From positions 186,001 through 250,000 of the forward strand of contig NZ_JAFBCZ010000004.1 of the NCBI RefSeq assembly GCF_016907925.1: a DNA stretch of 64,000 nt, in the 5' to 3' direction. A model generated the notes under the pieces. That model did not search any database and was not told the DNA's origin. It worked only from the letters and a program-made list of their open reading frames with translations. The position numbers and the translations under genes are program-made. The DNA is from Herpetosiphon giganteus. GTDB lineage: Bacteria > Chloroflexota > Chloroflexia > Chloroflexales > Herpetosiphonaceae. This document shows positions 1,366 to 51,960 of the stretch, in pieces (position 1 is the first letter of the stretch; each line of letters begins with the position of its first letter).

Positions 1366-1735
1366 ACATAGAACATAGTTGTGGGGATCGGTTATTAGGG
1401 GTCGGGGATCGGTGAGGCCTAAGCAAACAATGCTTCGGGCAATTCGTGGCAAAAAATTTAACGCAGAGGCGCAGAGAATGTATGGCTATAGGCTATGGGC
1501 TTTTGGCTCTAGGAAATTAATAATCTGGGCTAATCTGTGCAATCTGTGGCTACAATAATTATTATTCGTGGAATTCGTGGCAAAAGAACAGCCTTCGCGT
1601 CCTTCGCGATCTTCGCGGTTCCGATCCTTCGTGCCCTTCGTGTCCTTCGTGGATCAAATCCTTAACGCAGAGGGCTATAAAAAAGGGATCGGGCACAAAA
1701 CCCGATCCCCAACAACCATTCCCCAACCCCCACAT
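1366..1735. repeat. Mosaic of short-period intergenic repeats
   Basis: This gap of 370 bases between purE and lipA has no credible gene. From left to right it holds AGAACAT-type heptads continuing out of purE, GGGGATC-type heptads (about 1382-1416), an AACGCAGAGG element (1459-1477), GGCTATA-type heptads (1484-1511), ATTCGTGGC/AATTCGTGG units (1442 and 1565-1580), a block of 9-base units CTTCGCGTC changing to CTTCGTGTC (about 1592-1655), and GATCCCC-type heptads (about 1704-1735). The same families recur in other gaps of this window. Short open frames across it are products of the repeats. Confidence 0.85.
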
Positions 1736-44392: not shown

Positions 44393-44405
44393 CGTGAGGG
44401 TGCTT

Positions 44406-45674
44406 ATGCCTAAGACAGAAATCAAAGAACATATTGTGATGCGCAATCGCGATATTGAAAATATTCGCGATCTCGATGTGTATCTGGCAAATGGTGGGTA
44501 TGCAATGGCCAAGCAAGCCTTGACCAGCATGACTCCCGCCGCAATTATCGACGAAGTTAAAAAATCGGGCTTGCGCGGTCGTGGCGGCGCTGGCTTCCCC
44601 ACCGGGGTTAAATGGAGCTTTGTTCCCAAGGAATTAAACCCCAAATATTTGGTGGTTAACGCCGATGAGAGCGAGCCAGGCACGTTCAACAACCACGAAA
44701 TTATCGACGAAAATCCGCATCAATTGCTCGAAGGGATTGTGATCAGTGCCTTTGCAATTGGCGCAAACGTCGCTTATATCTACATTCGCGGCGAGTTTGC
44801 CTATGGCGCACGCTTCCTTGAGCAAAAAATTGCTGAAGCTCGCGAACGTGGCTTAATTGGCAAGAATTTGTTTGGCTCAGGCTACGATGTGGAAATATAT
44901 GTCCATCGCGGCGCTGGAGCCTACATTTGTGGCGAAGAAACCGCCTTGCTCGAATCGCTCGAAGGCAAGATTGGCCAGCCACGTTTGAAGCCACCCTTCC
45001 CAGCAGTCGCAGGCTTGTATGCCAAGCCAACCGTGGTCAACAACGTCGAAACCTTGACCAACGTGCCACGAATTATCGAAAAAGGCGCTGATTGGTTCCG
45101 CTCGTTCGGTACCGAAAAATCGCCTGGCACCAAGGCAGTTTCAATTAGCGGCCACGTCAAAAACCCTGGCAACTATGAAATTCCCTTGGGCATCACGATT
45201 CGCGAGTTCATTTTCGATTGGGCTGGCGGCATGCGCGACCCAAATCTACCCTTGAAGTTCATCATTCCAGGCGGCGCTTCATCCAACTGGCTCACCGAGG
45301 AACACCTCGATTTGCCAATGACATGGGATGATATGGCCGCTGCTGGCACGATGCTTGGCTCAGGCGCGATGGTCGTGCTCGATACCTCGGTTCCGGTGGT
45401 GCGGGCGGCATTGAAGGTCGACGAATTCTTCAAACACGAATCGTGTGGCAAGTGTTCGCCCTGCCGCGAAGGCACGCACTTCTTGGTCAAGGTTTGGGAG
45501 CGGATCGACGAAGGCCACGGGCGAGTTGGCGATATTGAGTTGCTGGCTGATGTTGGCAAGCAGATGCTTGGCAAGTGTTTCTGCCCACTGGGCGATTCAT
45601 CAGTCTCAGCGGTCAATAGCGCAATCAAATTCTTCCGGCCTGAGCTTGATGCAGCGATCGATGCACAGCACTAA
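44406..45674 (+). CDS. nuoF: NADH-quinone oxidoreductase subunit F
   Basis: 51-kDa-type subunit binding NADH, FMN and cluster N3, 422 residues. Visible: GLRGRGGAGFPTGVKW (NADH/FMN loop, about residues 55-70), NADESEPGTFNN (FMN), GAGAYICGEETAL, and the [4Fe-4S] ligands ESCGKCSPCREG with the fourth Cys in GKCFCPLGD. ATG at 44406 has GAGGG upstream; the GTG four codons earlier is less likely. A GxxExxY gene interrupts the order before nuoG. Confidence 0.97.
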   Translation: MPKTEIKEHIVMRNRDIENIRDLDVYLANGGYAMAKQALTSMTPAAIIDEVKKSGLRGRGGAGFPTGVKWSFVPKELNPKYLVVNADESEPGTFNNHEIIDENPHQLLEGIVISAFAIGANVAYIYIRGEFAYGARFLEQKIAEARERGLIGKNLFGSGYDVEIYVHRGAGAYICGEETALLESLEGKIGQPRLKPPFPAVAGLYAKPTVVNNVETLTNVPRIIEKGADWFRSFGTEKSPGTKAVSISGHVKNPGNYEIPLGITIREFIFDWAGGMRDPNLPLKFIIPGGASSNWLTEEHLDLPMTWDDMAAAGTMLGSGAMVVLDTSVPVVRAALKVDEFFKHESCGKCSPCREGTHFLVKVWERIDEGHGRVGDIELLADVGKQMLGKCFCPLGDSSVSAVNSAIKFFRPELDAAIDAQH

Positions 45675-45700
45675 GATTTATTGATCGTTTCAATTGCTCT

Positions 45701-46261
45701 AGCCACGAATTGCACGAATTACACGAATAATTATTGCCACCATTGTAGTTTACGAATGTAGCCATGGCATCTGACCAGATACTGGAGTAAGCAATGGCCA
45801 ATATTGTTCACGGCGAATTATCATATCAAGTTATTGGTTCGGCAATGGAAGTTCACCGAACGCTAGGCCCAGGCTTTTTAGAGTCAGTCTATCAAAAAGC
45901 GCTCGCTCATGAGCTTTTGCTGCGCCAAGTAGCATTTGCAGAACAAGTTCCGCTGATAGTTCGCTATAAAGAAGCAGTTGTTAAAGAAGCAGTTGTTGGA
46001 GATTTCATTGCGGATTTTGTGATTGATACATGCATTATTATCGAAATAAAAGCAATATCAACCTTACATCCAAAACATGAAGCTCAAACGCTGAATTATA
46101 TAACCTTGACTGGTTTTCGCTTAGGTTTGTTGATAAATTTTGGTGCACATTCACTTCAATATAAACGAATTGTAAAATAGCGCTTATGTTGAATGATAAT
46201 GAACATCCAACACGCTGGCAAAGCAAGAACCTAATCTGTGAAATTCGTGTAATTCGTGGCT
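45701..46261. repeat. Inverted 9-base-unit repeats flanking the GxxExxY gene
   Basis: The left copy at 45701-45729 starts AGCCACGAATTGCACGAA and is built of CACGAATT-type 9-base units. The right copy at 46243-46261 (ATTCGTGTAATTCGTGGCT) is its inverse with one unit fewer. They bracket the small gene inside the nuo operon. The same AGCCACGAATT motif occurs elsewhere in the window (50893, and inverted near 1442 and 1568), so it is a dispersed family and not proven to be element ends. Confidence 0.7.
45794..46180 (+). CDS. GxxExxY protein
   Basis: Small protein of 128 residues of the GxxExxY family. The naming motif is seen in LGPGFLESVYQKAL (Gly-Phe-Leu-Glu-Ser-Val-Tyr). GDFIADFVIDTCIIIEIKAIS carries a D...E-x-K pattern that resembles a PD-(D/E)XK nuclease core. 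YKEAVVKEAVVGD contains a small internal duplication. Biological role is unknown. It is richer in A+T than the nuo genes around it, is bracketed by inverted repeats, and is not part of complex I, so it looks like an insertion into the operon. Confidence 0.85.
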   Translation: MANIVHGELSYQVIGSAMEVHRTLGPGFLESVYQKALAHELLLRQVAFAEQVPLIVRYKEAVVKEAVVGDFIADFVIDTCIIIEIKAISTLHPKHEAQTLNYITLTGFRLGLLINFGAHSLQYKRIVK

Positions 46262-46304
46262 AAAAAGTAATTGAAACGTACTTTATACAAGAAAGGGCAG
46301 CCTC

Positions 46305-49046
46305 ATGCCTGATATGGTTACGTTGACGATTGATGGGCAGACGGTCTCGGTGCCAAAAGGCACCTTGGTCGTCGAAGCTGCCCGTCAGGTCGAAAATCTG
46401 ATTCCGGTGTTCTGCTATCACCCCAAAATGGCTCCCGTCGGCATGTGCCGGATGTGTGTGGTCAAGGTGGGAACGCCCAAGATGGACCCAGCCACCCGCC
46501 AGCCCGTCGTTGATGCCGATGGCAAATCGGTAATTGCGATGATGCCGCGCTTGCAAACCGCCTGTACCACGCCGGTCAGCGAAGGTATGGTGGTAGTAAC
46601 CCAAGATTCCGAAGTTGAGCACGCTCAGCGCGGTGTGTTGGAAGCCTTGCTCACCAGCCACCCACTCGATTGCCCAGTTTGTGATAAGGGCGGCGAATGC
46701 CCATTGCAAAACTTGACCATGGGTTGGGGGCCGGGCAAAACTCGCTTCGACTACAACGATAAAGTGCACTTTGAAAAACCAGTGCCACTTGGCGATTTAA
46801 TTTATCTCGACCGCGAACGCTGTATCTTGTGCGCCCGCTGTGTGCGCTTCCAAGACGAAATTGCAGGCGATCCAGTGCTAGGTTTCTACAATCGTGGCCG
46901 CGCTTGGCACATCATCTCGCAATCCGACCCAGAATTTGATAGCAAGTTCTCGGGCAACACCACCGACATCTGTCCGGTGGGCGCGTTGACCTCAGCCGAC
47001 TTCCGCTTCAAAGCTCGGGTTTGGGAATTGCAGCCAATTCCAACGGTCTGTAATCACTGCTCAGTTGGCTGTAACATGACCTTCGATACCCGCTCGAACG
47101 ACATCAAACGGGTCATGCCACGCGAAAACGATGCAGTCAATGAAATTTGGCTGTGTGATCGTGGGCGCTTCGGCCATCACTTCAATACCAGCAAGCAACG
47201 CCTGACCACGCCATTGGTGCGCAAGGCTGGCAAACTGCAAGAAGCAACGTGGGAAGAAGCCTTGAGCATCGTTGCCCAACAACTTGATGGCATTCGCAGC
47301 ACCACGGGCGGCAAAGCCATCGGTGGTTTGGCAGGCACATCGTTGGCCAACGAAGATCTCTACGCCTTCCAACGCTTCTTCCGCGAAACGCTTGGCTCGG
47401 CCAATATCGATCATCGCTCAGGCTCGGCCTTGGACTTGCCGCTTGATGACGCTGGTGCGCAATATGGCATTCGCAGCGGCACCGATCTTTCGACCCTTGG
47501 CAAAGGCACGGTTGTGCTGGTGTTTGGCGCAGATCCCGAAGAAGAAGCGCCAGTGCACTTGCTACGGATTCGTGGCATCAACACCCGTGGCGGCAGTGTA
47601 ATTACGCTCAATGGCCGCCCAACCAAGCTCGATAGCATTGCCAAGCACGCCTTGCGCTACAAATATGGCAGCGAAAGCGCCATTTTGGCCGCCTTGCTCA
47701 AGCCATTGCTCGATAGCACGCCAGCCGATGGCAAACGCGCAACCTTGCGTGGTTTCAACGATTTGGTGGCCGCGCTCAAAGGCTTCAATCTCGATGAACA
47801 AGCAAGCGGCATTAGCGCCGATAAGCTCAATACAGTTGCAGAGCTGATCAACAGCGCCGAAAACTTGGTGATCTTCTATGGTCGCGATGCCTTGACCGCT
47901 GGCGCAAGCGTGCCTGCTGGCTTGGCCAACCTTTTGGTAATGACCCGCAAAGCTGGCGCTACCAATAGCGGCTTGATTAGCTTGCTCAAAGGCGCAAATG
48001 CTCGTGGCGCGCTTGATTTGGGCGTGCGGCCTGACCGTGGGCCAAATTATGCAGCGTTGAGCAATGCAGGCCTTGATGCCAAGCAAATGCTGAGCGCCGC
48101 CCGCGAAGGCAAACTCAAAGCCCTGTATGTCGCTGGGGTTGATCCCGTTGGCGATAATCCTGCTGCTGCCGAAAGCTTGAAGAAACTTGGTTTGTTGGTT
48201 GTGCAAGAGCTGTTCTTGACCGAAACCGCCAAATTGGCCGATGTGGTCTTACCAGTCTTGAGCGTTGCCGAGCGCGAAGGAACATACACCAACGCCGAAC
48301 GCCGCGTTCAGCGCTTCCGCCAAGCAATTCGCCCAACGATCAATGCTCGGCCCGACTGGCAAATTTTGCAAGCCTTGGCCAACCAATTGGTTTCCGAAGC
48401 CGTCTTGAGCGCTGCTGGTGGCGATAAGAGCCGCAAGCAAACCCGCCGCGAAGAAGATAAAGCCCGGGTACGCAGCGAATGGACGTATGCTTCGCCAGCA
48501 GAAATTCTGATGGATATTCAAGCCAATGTTGCTGGCTACAAAGGCGTGAGCTATGCCAGCTTGCAAGGCCCAACTGGCCAATGGGGCCGCCAAGCCAACG
48601 AAAACTACTACTTCGATGGCACTTCCTACCAAAATACTGGTGGCTTGGGTGTGCAATTGCCAGCAGCGGTCGAAACCAGCTCAATCCAAACCTTGCAGCC
48701 ATTCAGCGTTAGCACGCCAGCCAGCGTTGCCGACCGCCCATGGACTTTGGTTGGCGCAACCTTCTTGTATGATGATGGCGCGTTGCTGACCGACACCGAC
48801 TTGCTGAATAACCGCAAAGCCAAAGCTGTGGTCGCACTCAACCCAGTTGATGCCGATAAACTTGGGGTCAAAAATGGCGAGCGCGTGACCGTTAGCTCTG
48901 GTCGTGGCAGCCTTAGTTTGCCAGTTCACCGTACCAAACTTGCGCCCGAAGGCGTAGTCGTCGTACCTGTTGGGGTTAATAATGTGGGCTTGGTCAGCGT
49001 CGTCGAAGGTGGCGCAACGCCAGTAGCCATTCGTCGGGAGGCCTAG
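46305..49046 (+). CDS. nuoG: NADH-quinone oxidoreductase subunit G
   Basis: 75-kDa-type subunit of 913 residues carrying several clusters. N-terminal [2Fe-2S] ligands lie in FCYHPKMAPVGMCRMC. Further ligands are in CPVCDKGGECPLQN, RCILCARCVRF and TDICPVGAL, then CNHCSVGCNM for the N7-type [4Fe-4S] cluster at the start of the molybdopterin-type domain. The C-terminal half is a degenerate formate-dehydrogenase-like domain, with a final molybdopterin-dinucleotide-type beta barrel (VTVSSGRGSLSLPVHR). Length is normal for bacteria with the N7 cluster. Confidence 0.96.
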   Translation: MPDMVTLTIDGQTVSVPKGTLVVEAARQVENLIPVFCYHPKMAPVGMCRMCVVKVGTPKMDPATRQPVVDADGKSVIAMMPRLQTACTTPVSEGMVVVTQDSEVEHAQRGVLEALLTSHPLDCPVCDKGGECPLQNLTMGWGPGKTRFDYNDKVHFEKPVPLGDLIYLDRERCILCARCVRFQDEIAGDPVLGFYNRGRAWHIISQSDPEFDSKFSGNTTDICPVGALTSADFRFKARVWELQPIPTVCNHCSVGCNMTFDTRSNDIKRVMPRENDAVNEIWLCDRGRFGHHFNTSKQRLTTPLVRKAGKLQEATWEEALSIVAQQLDGIRSTTGGKAIGGLAGTSLANEDLYAFQRFFRETLGSANIDHRSGSALDLPLDDAGAQYGIRSGTDLSTLGKGTVVLVFGADPEEEAPVHLLRIRGINTRGGSVITLNGRPTKLDSIAKHALRYKYGSESAILAALLKPLLDSTPADGKRATLRGFNDLVAALKGFNLDEQASGISADKLNTVAELINSAENLVIFYGRDALTAGASVPAGLANLLVMTRKAGATNSGLISLLKGANARGALDLGVRPDRGPNYAALSNAGLDAKQMLSAAREGKLKALYVAGVDPVGDNPAAAESLKKLGLLVVQELFLTETAKLADVVLPVLSVAEREGTYTNAERRVQRFRQAIRPTINARPDWQILQALANQLVSEAVLSAAGGDKSRKQTRREEDKARVRSEWTYASPAEILMDIQANVAGYKGVSYASLQGPTGQWGRQANENYYFDGTSYQNTGGLGVQLPAAVETSSIQTLQPFSVSTPASVADRPWTLVGATFLYDDGALLTDTDLLNNRKAKAVVALNPVDADKLGVKNGERVTVSSGRGSLSLPVHRTKLAPEGVVVVPVGVNNVGLVSVVEGGATPVAIRREA

Positions 49047-50242: not shown

Positions 50243-50791
50243 ATGCTTTTACGTCAAACTGAGCGACTGCAACTGCATGTGCTCGAAGAATTTGATGCTC
50301 CGCGTGTACTTGAGTTTTATCAGGCCAATGCCGAATTTCGCCGTGATTGGTCGCCGACAATGGATGCCAGTTTTCTGACGCTTGAAGGCCAGCGCGAACG
50401 CTTGCGCAGCGATCGCATTGGGCGTGATCGCGAGCAGGGCTTAGCCCTTTGGATCACCGAAATCGATCAGCCAGCAATTATTGGCATGGTGGCCTTGCGC
50501 AACATTGTACGTGGTGCCTTTTGGTCGTGCCATCTGGGCTACGAAATTCATCAAGCCTACGCCAAGCGCGGCTATATTAGCGAAGCCTTGCAGGCAGTGA
50601 TTGAATATGCGTTTGTCGATTTGCGCCTACATCGGATCGAAGCCAACATTATGCCGCGCAATCAACGCTCGATTCGGGTGGTCGAAAAGCTAGGCTTTGA
50701 GCACGAAGGCCTGGCGCGTAAATATCTCAAAATCAATGGCATCTGGGAAGATCATATTCATTATGTGCGCTTGAATGCCGCCGTTGAATAA
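50243..50791 (+). CDS. GNAT acetyltransferase, RimJ/RimL-like
   Basis: Acetyl-CoA-dependent N-acetyltransferase of 182 residues. It shows the order of the RimJ type: LLRQTERLQLHVLEE at the start, LGYEIHQAYAKRGYISEALQAVIEYAF (motif A, acetyl-CoA loop) and LHRIEANIMPRNQRSIRVVEKLGFEHEGLARKYLKINGIWEDH at the end. Targets may be ribosomal protein N-termini or antibiotics. AGGAG spacing favours the second ATG at 50243 over 50237. The stop is followed at once by a heptad array. Confidence 0.9.
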   Translation: MLLRQTERLQLHVLEEFDAPRVLEFYQANAEFRRDWSPTMDASFLTLEGQRERLRSDRIGRDREQGLALWITEIDQPAIIGMVALRNIVRGAFWSCHLGYEIHQAYAKRGYISEALQAVIEYAFVDLRLHRIEANIMPRNQRSIRVVEKLGFEHEGLARKYLKINGIWEDHIHYVRLNAAVE

Positions 50792-51077
50792 AGGATGAAG
50801 GATGAGGGATGAATAAGGATGAAGGATGAGGGATGAATTATGAAGAAAAATTTTCATTCCTCATGACTCTTCCCTCAAACGTTACCTTATTTAGCCACGA
50901 ATTGTCCGAATTACACAAATCATATTCCGATAGACAATCGCCAAAAGACTTCAGCCATTTTCCTTCGTGCTCTTCGTGCTCTTCGTGGTTAAATTTCATC
51001 CCTCATCCCTCATAATTCATCCTTACCTCATGTTCTATATTCTCAACTTCATCCCTCATCCTTCATAGTTCATCCTT
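50791..51077. repeat. Heptad and 9-base arrays between GNAT and SDR genes
   Basis: AAGGATG/AGGGATG units occupy 50791-50842 as two near-identical blocks separated by three bases. An AGCCACGAATT copy lies at 50893. CTTCGTGCT-type 9-base units lie at about 50963-50990. CATCCCT/CATAATT/CATCCTT units lie at 50997-51024 and 51050-51077. The last unit overlaps the 3' end of the convergent SDR gene and provides its stop codon. No gene is present. Confidence 0.87.
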
Positions 51078-51960
51078 GGGCAGCTTGTTCTAGCACGTTG
51101 GCGTAATACGCACCCCAATGGGGCTGGCGGCCATCAACATCGAAGAAGCCATATTCTTCCATCAACGTCCACGAAGCCCACGTTTTGCCAGCTTTTTGCG
51201 CCACATTGGGGTCGCTGGCCAAGGCCACAATTCCCCGTCCAAGATAATAAGGTGTTTCGGATTCGCTATAATGTGGCTCTTTGGCAATCGCATCGCGCCA
51301 ATTTTCCTCAGCCACCCCAAAGTGATCAAGCATTTGCTCGGAGCGCAAAAAGCCAGGGGTTACAGTTAATGCAGTTACGCCATGGTCTTTCAAATCTTCG
51401 TGCATGCCAACAGCGATGCGCATCACGCTGGTTTTGATCAAATCGTAGATACTATGGCCACGATAGTTGAGCGTATCGCCATCGGTTACTTCAATAATCA
51501 AGCCTTGGCCACGAGCAACCAGCAATGGCGCTGCATAAAATGAGGTAATTAAGTGGGTATCAATAGAATTGTGCAAGAGGTTCAGATTTTTGTGAATATC
51601 ACCTTCCCAGAACTTTTGGCCCCAGACTACTGCCGTCTCGCCGCCCCAAATATCGTTGACCACAATATCAAGCTGGCCTGATTGTTCAGCGTCAATCCGT
51701 TGAATGAGTGCTTGCACTTGGGCCGAATCACTATGATCAACTTGGACTGCAATGCCCTGACCACCAGCCGCCGTCACCATTTCAGCAGTATCCTCGATCG
51801 TTTCAGCGCGATTGATTGGCGAACGTTGATTGCGCGTGGTGCGGCCTGTACAATAGACGGTTGCGCCAGCCTCGCCCAAGCTGACCGCAATTCCGCGCCC
51901 ACAGCCACGGGTTGCCCCAGCTACCAATGCTACTTTGCCTGCTAAAGCTTTAGTTGTCAT
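51070..51960 (-). CDS. Short-chain dehydrogenase/reductase
   Basis: NAD(P)-dependent oxidoreductase of 296 residues. The Rossmann motif is VAGATRGCGRGIAVSL (about residues 11-26), and CTGRTT suggests NADP binding. The catalytic pair is in SIYDLIKTS (Tyr-x3-Lys). The sequence VNDIWGGE replaces the more usual NNAG. The C-terminus is extended compared with a standard SDR of about 250 residues. AGGAGG is nine bases before ATG 51960 and only three before ATG 51966. The final glycine codon and TGA come from an AAGGATG heptad. Confidence 0.92.
   Translation of the reverse strand: MTTKALAGKVALVAGATRGCGRGIAVSLGEAGATVYCTGRTTRNQRSPINRAETIEDTAEMVTAAGGQGIAVQVDHSDSAQVQALIQRIDAEQSGQLDIVVNDIWGGETAVVWGQKFWEGDIHKNLNLLHNSIDTHLITSFYAAPLLVARGQGLIIEVTDGDTLNYRGHSIYDLIKTSVMRIAVGMHEDLKDHGVTALTVTPGFLRSEQMLDHFGVAEENWRDAIAKEPHYSESETPYYLGRGIVALASDPNVAQKAGKTWASWTLMEEYGFFDVDGRQPHWGAYYANVLEQAAQG

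Follow-up and report, generated by a model that had tools for sequence, protein, structure and literature searches.

A GxxExxY nuclease-family gene within the nuo operon of Herpetosiphon, a candidate source locus of dispersed short-unit repeat arrays

The GxxExxY gene and its arms in Herpetosiphon

The window analyzed here, to which all coordinates refer unless a contig or locus is named, is a 64,000-nucleotide stretch of the Herpetosiphon giganteus genome; NCBI taxonomy assigns Herpetosiphon to the Chloroflexota. This source genome is labeled G000, and the other five Herpetosiphon genomes are labeled G001 to G005. The features at the locus, in which a GxxExxY gene and its two flanking repeat arrays (arms) lie between nuoF and nuoG, are as follows.

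44394..45674, + strand: nuoF, the host operon gene 5' of the GxxExxY gene (TIGR01959, E 1.8e-177)
45686..45729, + strand: left arm, an inward-reading array of about three 9-nt units; CGTTTCAATT on the outside, followed by TAGCCACGAATT-G-CACGAATT-A-CACGAATA
45794..46180, + strand: GxxExxY gene; 128-amino-acid open reading frame (ORF) with a PD-(D/E)XK nuclease fold, in which residues 27 to 33 form the motif GFLESVY
45967..45996, + strand: perfect 15-bp tandem duplication within the GxxExxY gene, giving five extra residues relative to the G002 orthologue
46230..46278, - strand: right arm, with the - strand sequence CGTTTCAATT-ACTTTT-TAGCCACGAATT-A-CACGAATT-T-CACAGATTAGG; two GAATT units and one inner AGATT unit
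46305..49046, + strand: nuoG, the host operon gene 3' of the GxxExxY gene (TIGR01973, E 8.9e-162)

An earlier note on this DNA had described a non-respiratory GxxExxY gene between nuoF and nuoG, with which the ORF at 45794-46180 and its family matches agree. The encoded protein matches PF13366 (PDDEXK_3) in Pfam over residues 8 to 125 of 128 (E 1.1e-37; 129.5 bits against a curated cut-off of 22) and TIGR04256 (GxxExxY) in NCBIfam (E 1.5e-40; 138.2 bits against a curated cut-off of 35). The higher A+T content reported for the insert is also found, with 39.0% GC in 45701-46261 compared to 52.5% in nuoF and 55.7% in nuoG. The nuclease-like D...ExK residues pointed out in the note are conserved among 77 aligned homologues, in which E30, D74, and K86 are invariant and E84 is at least 90% conserved; such residues would suit an active nuclease. 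An AlphaFold2 model of the protein (mean pLDDT, 92.2) most closely resembles SSO0001 (4ic1; Z 9.9, rmsd 4.3 over 100 residues, 19% sequence identity), which we take to be a Cas4 protein. Below it rank mostly other PD-(D/E)XK nucleases, Hjc among them (1gef; Z 6.8), where a Z below 8 may reflect a common arrangement, and a sequence-profile search of solved structures returned T7 endonuclease I as its sole, weak match (E 0.93). Model and alignment together give a restriction-endonuclease-like fold with D...ExK residues, which places the protein in the PD-(D/E)XK superfamily.

The two arms are inverted arrays of the 9-nt unit CACGAATTN with the outer end TAGC. Positions 45700-45724 and 46238-46262 are 92% complementary, positions 45713-45728 and 46243-46258 are 100% complementary, and the outer 13-nt pair (45686-45698 and 46266-46278) is 92% complementary, in line with the inverted 9-nt-unit copies that had been noted on either side of the gene.

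The flank repeat is not special to the nuo-site gene: it is a member of a dispersed family. Exact copies of AGCCACGAATT occur in the 64-kb window at 45701-45711 (+), 46251-46261 (-), and 50893-50903 (+), and at up to one mismatch the window contains 11 matches compared to 1.69 expected, a count reached in 0 of 100 shuffles. Across G000, CCACGAATTNCACGAATT has 113+111 matches at up to two mismatches and 71+71 at up to one, with 0+0 for the reversed-pattern control, and the other five Herpetosiphon genomes carry 41 to 154 repeat copies (up to one mismatch). The arms are mostly intergenic, as 1 of 35 arm centers at the genus loci falls in a stop-to-stop frame of at least 150 amino acids, compared to 78% for the background. 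Solo arms prevail in G000. The 88 exact matches listed there include one inward pair, which is that of the nuo-site gene, and eight same-strand neighbors, and most of the listed arms have no inverted partner within 600 bp. Two further arm sites in the window are:

1441..1582 (G000:C4:187441-187582), - strand: two CACGAATT arms in the same orientation, enclosing CGCAGAG, heptamer, and CACAGATT arrays
50888..50920, + strand: intergenic solo copy of the dispersed arm, TATTTAGCCACGAATTGTCCGAATTACACAAAT; G002 has a similar arm at the same place

At the first of these sites, only one arm is present in G002, a difference that recombination between arms or duplication of one of them could have produced. 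Herpetosiphon arms form mosaics with other short-unit arrays, and these arrays are not the same in two genomes that are 88-96% alike in their collinear coding blocks. About ten short-unit array families are seen in the intergenic mosaics of G000:C4 and G002:C39, for example at window positions 50780-51080, and their heptamers and similar units include CATCCTT, TATGTTC, ATAGCC, and GACTTTT. GC-rich stretches with inverted parts, of the CCCTCACCCC..GGCGAGGGG type and others, lie near positions 66346, 98531, 129313, 185438, 256793, and 278616 of G000:C4, and G002 is without them there.

DNA and family searches found the GxxExxY gene at the nuo junction in six of six Herpetosiphon genomes. Outside the genus, 14 genomes were searched with nuoF; in ten of them a close nuoF allowed the junction to be read, and the other four, with only 41-43% matches, were left out, as were second matches. 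All ten readable junctions are free of gene and arms, CACGAATT and tandem units having been sought by sequence search and the GxxExxY gene by reading. This is the empty site for which the earlier note had suggested looking in relatives. In the sister-genus genome G107, the nuoF-nuoG gap measures 50 nt and contains neither CACGAATT nor a tandem unit, and the gene and repeat counts of the Chloroflexota set give no GxxExxY gene and no repeat anywhere in this genome. Absence from the sister-genus and other readable junctions indicates that the unit was gained, most likely on the branch leading to Herpetosiphon, and inherited since. The view of the element as a small mobile unit is only partly supported: the unit was gained, but with six of six genus genomes occupied, there is no sign of current movement at the nuo site. 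Occupation throughout the genus together with ten of ten free junctions outside it points to an insertion that is old and that today passes vertically between generations, kept by purifying selection. The dN/dS of two nuo-site pairs is 0.04 and 0.10 (Nei-Gojobori). A target-site duplication was not found by eye, the sister-genus junction being too diverged to define one, nor was a transposition event found. Two side observations concern the relatives. The nuoF match of G107 (L259) has one in-frame TGA, and the junction of G184 (L260, 2845-3405) holds a Uma2 gene, a putative restriction endonuclease, so that the nuoF-nuoG junction took inserts more than once.

The nuo-site arms are of the CACGAATT type in G000 and G002 and of the CACAGATT type in the other four genus genomes, where a relic of the CACGAATT outer end remains outside on the right. 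The two nuo-site protein types share about 61% identity and fall into a single group of four tree rows (support, 97). At this one site, the arm type thus changes along with the protein. In G001 and G003 (L012 and L016), the nuo-site gene is interrupted by one in-frame stop, which affects the same tryptophan codon in both but reads TAG in one genome and TGA in the other; the other four genus genomes have intact copies.

G000 contains three GxxExxY genes in total. The second copy is genus wide, has CACGAAG arms, and is broken in G001; in G005 it is flanked on one side by a gene of the SufB/D family and on the other by one for a class-V aminotransferase, which read as sufD and sufS. Its dN/dS ranges from 0.05 to 0.14 in four pairs and equals 0.83 in the G002-G005 pair, for which both distances are about 0.01. 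Between these two species (L009, G002:C44; L011, G005:C3), the element beside the SufB/D-family gene is 98-99% identical, and its surroundings are mostly 95-97% identical within about 500 bp, 82-94% further left, and 88-100% further right. This profile hints at a conversion tract that is not clear. The third G000 copy has CGCAGAG arms.

Flanks, repeat units, and protein lineages across phyla

One scan returned 586 matching stretches, of which the 80 listed GxxExxY loci, from many phyla, were analyzed. Flanks were tested at 74 of them, the other six having less than 150 bp of flank on one side. When the left flank is compared with the reverse-complemented right flank, the median score is 19, compared to 9 for the controls. 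Scores lie above the highest of 132 shifted controls at 65 of the 74 loci, and the remaining nine have no flank signal beyond the shifted controls. Swapped flank pairs from different loci score up to 24 because loci can share one unit. The inverted score is greater than the direct score at 52 loci, equal at 3, and lower at 19. The units take the form CRC-NN-A-(T/G/A), mostly T or G, and are 8 to 11 nt long. Inward tandem units were found on the left (+) at 38 of 74 loci and on the right (-) at 35. Units facing the other way are fewer, at 11 loci on the left (-) and 7 on the right (+), and the control windows give 6 of 280. GxxExxY genes elsewhere, which the earlier note had proposed inspecting for the same repeat, thus commonly have inverted flanks, with a unit that varies by protein lineage.

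No conserved partner gene was found at the 80 loci: the largest neighbor families occur at eight loci each, save a 26-locus family that was rejected as a partner, since it looks like a reverse-strand shadow of the GxxExxY gene. These eight-locus families read by eye as an ABC transporter and a nucleotide-sugar epimerase or dehydratase. Such genes lie near L061, L071, L076, L079, L080, L094, L102, and L104 and, among others, near L068, L069, L083, L084, L093, L105, and L108; these loci are perhaps surface-polysaccharide clusters. A second GxxExxY-like frame is present within the same few kilobases at five of the 80 loci (L059, L061, L097, L108, and L128). These frames constitute one similarity family, the first member of which reads as GxxExxY. 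L234 (G006:C30) has two tandem GxxExxY matches in one 305-amino-acid frame.

Units were labeled automatically at 92 of 114 loci, and 91 of these genes are on a tree of 119 rows and about 125 columns, a quick tree with many unresolved forks; L077, whose match holds stops, was left out of the trees. Hand-read labels had been used for an earlier tree, and 54 of 55 shared letters agree with the automatic ones. The base after NNA changes 7 times on the tree, whereas 1,000 label shuffles average 33 changes and never give fewer than 26. In the within-phylum test (60 rows), the 4 changes observed compare to a shuffle mean of 17.4 and a shuffle minimum of 10. The whole four-letter unit changes 41 times, below the shuffle minimum of 57 and the minimum of 47 obtained by shuffling within the T/G/A classes. 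Host phylum changes 27 times on the same tree, and hosts therefore do not explain the unit distribution. Gene and arms linked as one cassette would also give this tree match, though not the dispersal in trans.

The match also extends to new genes, for which 34 of 52 rows were used (11 already known loci, two halves of one fused gene, and five fragments were left out) and 27 were labeled. The T/G/A base was predicted correctly from the best-matching older protein in 25 of the 27, both misses being A-type, and the exact four-letter unit in only 7. Ile occupies residue 18 in 35 of the 40 G-type proteins and in 0 of the 52 T-type proteins, 43 of which have Met there (six labels by hand); the M18 of the nuo-site protein is shared with most T-type members. 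An independent-pairs test of this residue gave two supported switches, both concordant and too few for significance. The Holophagaceae and Geothrix loci L075, L111, L117, and L118 have several neighbor families in common and units that differ (CAGCGATTC, CACAGATT, and CGCAGATG); here, too, the unit may have changed at one place.

Own-type and other-type repeats were compared for 50 of the 80 listed loci, in 49 genomes. Genomes with AGAT arms have more AGAT repeats than the rest (median, 9 compared to 1.5), and the same holds for GAAT (5 compared to 0) and CAAG (24 compared to 1), with one-sided p values of 0.0004 to 0.001 for counts to which the gene's own arms add a few. The CAAG count of G049 is uninformative because its reversed-pattern control gives 22+23, compared to 1+1 forward and reverse. 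Among 151 Chloroflexota, at least four T-type tandem copies occur in 15 of the 34 genomes with a GxxExxY gene and in 1 of the 117 without (Fisher p 1.4e-10, ignoring kinship), the exception being G139 with five copies. The 15 repeat-rich, gene-bearing genomes comprise five Herpetosiphon, nine of one other family, and one of a third, and thus represent few independent events. Fewer than four copies were counted in the other 19 gene-bearing genomes, where the count covers T-type copies only. A second cognate gene, predicted in 11 genomes with an extra repeat type, was found in five and absent from six, some assemblies being fragmented; the five include G010, with mixed TGAT/AGAT units, and G039:C117, a place named before the search. 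In two Bacteroidota genomes, repeat matches are clustered rather than scattered, 14 of 15 within about 13 kb (G009:C4:19291-32079) and 5 of 5 within about 5 kb (G011:C24:10916-15604).

Unit and protein clade track each other across phyla, and dispersed copies concentrate in gene-bearing genomes. Recognition of the arrays by the cognate GxxExxY protein, which the earlier note had suggested for the nuo-site flanks, is in this way well supported, if indirectly.

The shape of the dispersed copies was studied in two Acidobacteriota genomes, G026 (Blastocatellia) and G039 (Holophagaceae), and in a genome of a further phylum, G012 (Calditrichia). Neighboring arms within 600 bp face inward or outward at ratios of 24:0, 18:0, and 11:1, respectively, based on all 81 matches in G026, 81 of 137 listed in G039, and 81 of 162 listed in G012. 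Inward pairs account for 48 of 67 arms in G026 and, among the matches listed, for 36 of 52 in G039 and 22 of 61 in G012. Spacers between paired arms measure 33 to 209 bp, or about 440 to 450 bp where the gene lies inside. The interiors of most copies that were read are unrelated by eye, and five G039 copies share a GC-rich insert that occurs in both orientations. In G026, CACAAAA-type units are present on both strands in 13 of 19 dispersed stretches, nested inside where the whole element is seen. Arms resemble each other no more within an element than between elements (1,211 and 1,997 of 2,000 shuffles reach the score). A stem constraint is therefore not supported, and the result suits separate protein sites.

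Proposed mechanism and alternative explanations

We propose, with a probability of roughly 0.6, that the nuo-site element is a source locus of a nuclease-repeat system that is REP/RAYT-like and built on an unrelated enzyme. The PD-(D/E)XK nuclease of each GxxExxY lineage would recognize arrays of its own 8- to 11-nt unit (CRC-NN-A-T/G; here CACGAATT), along which it is probably bound as a dimer or oligomer. Two such arrays face inward around the nuclease's own gene, and gene-less arrays are scattered in intergenic DNA, as solo arms in Herpetosiphon or often as inward-facing pairs in the three genomes of two other phyla. The nuclease may cut or nick its arrays, and repair would then copy the arrays into further intergenic sites, at times along with the entire gene unit, with the gene itself mostly inherited in place. 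The model builds on the inward flanks, the matching of unit and protein, the dispersal mainly in gene-bearing genomes, and the gene-free junction outside the genus, as well as on conserved catalytic residues and purifying selection; binding, cutting, copying by repair, and spreading of the arrays are the steps that we infer. At about even odds, GxxExxY proteins would more broadly be the enzymes of a widespread, undescribed nuclease-repeat family that fills intergenic DNA in many phyla. Each lineage would read its own unit, with residue 18 (Met/Ile) as the candidate determinant of T or G after NNA, and the family would be a second, independently evolved RAYT/REPIN-like solution.

The earlier note had stated two outcomes that would speak against its proposal, and both are, taken literally, what is seen: the gene is conserved in the nuo operons of relatives, within the genus, and flanks are commoner away from the gene, with three genes compared to 142 to 224 repeat matches in G000. 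Neither refutes recognition. Vertical inheritance of the enzyme combined with dispersal of the repeats in trans is what RAYT/REPIN systems show as well.

It is unlikely that the repeats belong to the host or another agent and that GxxExxY is a homing-type parasite, a selfish endonuclease that cuts these repeats and is copied in by repair. Insertion into a one-way array would give direct flanks, whereas the flanks observed are mostly inward. The rarity of the gene among the many repeats of G000 would fit such a parasite, but repeats are nearly absent from gene-free Chloroflexota, and the unit matches the protein lineage across phyla. The second copy in G002 and G005 is also what a homing event could leave behind, given its high identity within the element compared to the stretch further left; the identity of up to 100% further right means that an element-centered tract is not clear. 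The gene-free junction of G107, for comparison with homing endonucleases, is the one described above that has no CACGAATT and no tandem unit.

We regard as equally unlikely a regulatory or structural role, with arrays as operators or chromosome-binding sites that spread by ordinary recombination and a fold that is kept for binding or repair. Genes that stay put inside operons throughout the genus under purifying selection, and arms that avoid long frames (1 of 35 centers compared to 78%), accord with this role. Binding alone, however, would not need catalytic residues that are near-invariant in 77 sequences, and the arrays turn over between two genomes with highly similar coding blocks.

More doubtful still is an RNA-level unit: base pairing between the two arms of the nuo transcript would let the insert be tolerated or lead to its removal by processing, and RNA would be the substrate of the protein. 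Folded as RNA, positions 45675-46304 do form a long stem from the arms (z -5.15), with a stability that 0 of 20 shuffles reach, yet arms of the same element, being no more alike than arms of different elements, are no more complementary either, most listed G000 arms stand without a nearby inverted partner, and 45600-46400 has no Rfam match.

PD-(D/E)XK nucleases are common in defense, toxin-antitoxin, and phage systems, but a cargo gene of this kind that lies in repeats by chance is highly improbable, given that the protein has no match in PADLOC or PHROGs and no tblastn match among 50,697 phage records, that 71 pattern matches in viral contigs include 0 relatives, and that no neighbor family exceeds 8 of 80 loci, the reverse-strand shadow aside. 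GxxExxY relatives occur in eight plasmid records, all at less than 60% identity and all predicted to be non-mobilizable.

Comparison with known systems

The nuo-site protein is a clear member of the GxxExxY family (TIGR04256; PF13366). The accessible text of the GxxExxY literature is silent on repeats, and the papers found on GxxExxY and on PF13366 contain none of six typical repeat strings. An association between GxxExxY and repeats is absent from the literature searched, a body of text to which most subscription journals and all preprints do not belong.

As an enzyme, the protein shares structural likeness with Cas4 and RecB-type PD-(D/E)XK nucleases through SSO0001, to which it is 19% identical, and is smaller. 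Archaeal Hjc and T7 endonuclease I belong to the same fold class, with scores within the range of common fold matches. The element has terminal inverted repeats, as do insertion sequences and transposons. Like miniature elements (MITEs) with an autonomous parent, short inverted-arm copies occur beside a gene-bearing copy in G026 and G039. Unlike MITEs, these copies have interiors that are, by eye, mostly unrelated to each other and to the gene, and GxxExxY elements carry no known transposase domain and no target duplication that could be seen.

In the RAYT/REPIN system (TnpA-REP REPtron), the gene is bordered by palindromic repeats that are also dispersed in high copy and commoner in gene-bearing genomes; the gene is mostly vertical, and enzyme and repeat co-evolve (PMC8266576, PMC8049555). 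The GxxExxY gene is similarly bordered by a genome-dispersed repeat, and its repeats are concentrated in gene-bearing genomes (15 of 34 compared to 1 of 117 Chloroflexota, ignoring kinship). It differs in that the enzyme has a PD-(D/E)XK fold instead of an HUH/Y1 (IS200-like) transposase, that its repeats are tandem arrays of 8- to 11-nt units instead of single REP hairpins, and that the processing of its repeats is presumed. The system is not a RAYT/REPIN member because the HUH transposase domain is absent, PF13366 being the only Pfam match. GxxExxY proteins, found in many phyla, have a name without a function, which a testable specificity of enzyme, unit, and residue would supply. If true, the proposed system would account for several short intergenic repeat families and would give the HUH transposases a counterpart, a second class of enzymes that have cognate repeats dispersed in the genome, making the spread of such repeats comparable between two unrelated enzymes.
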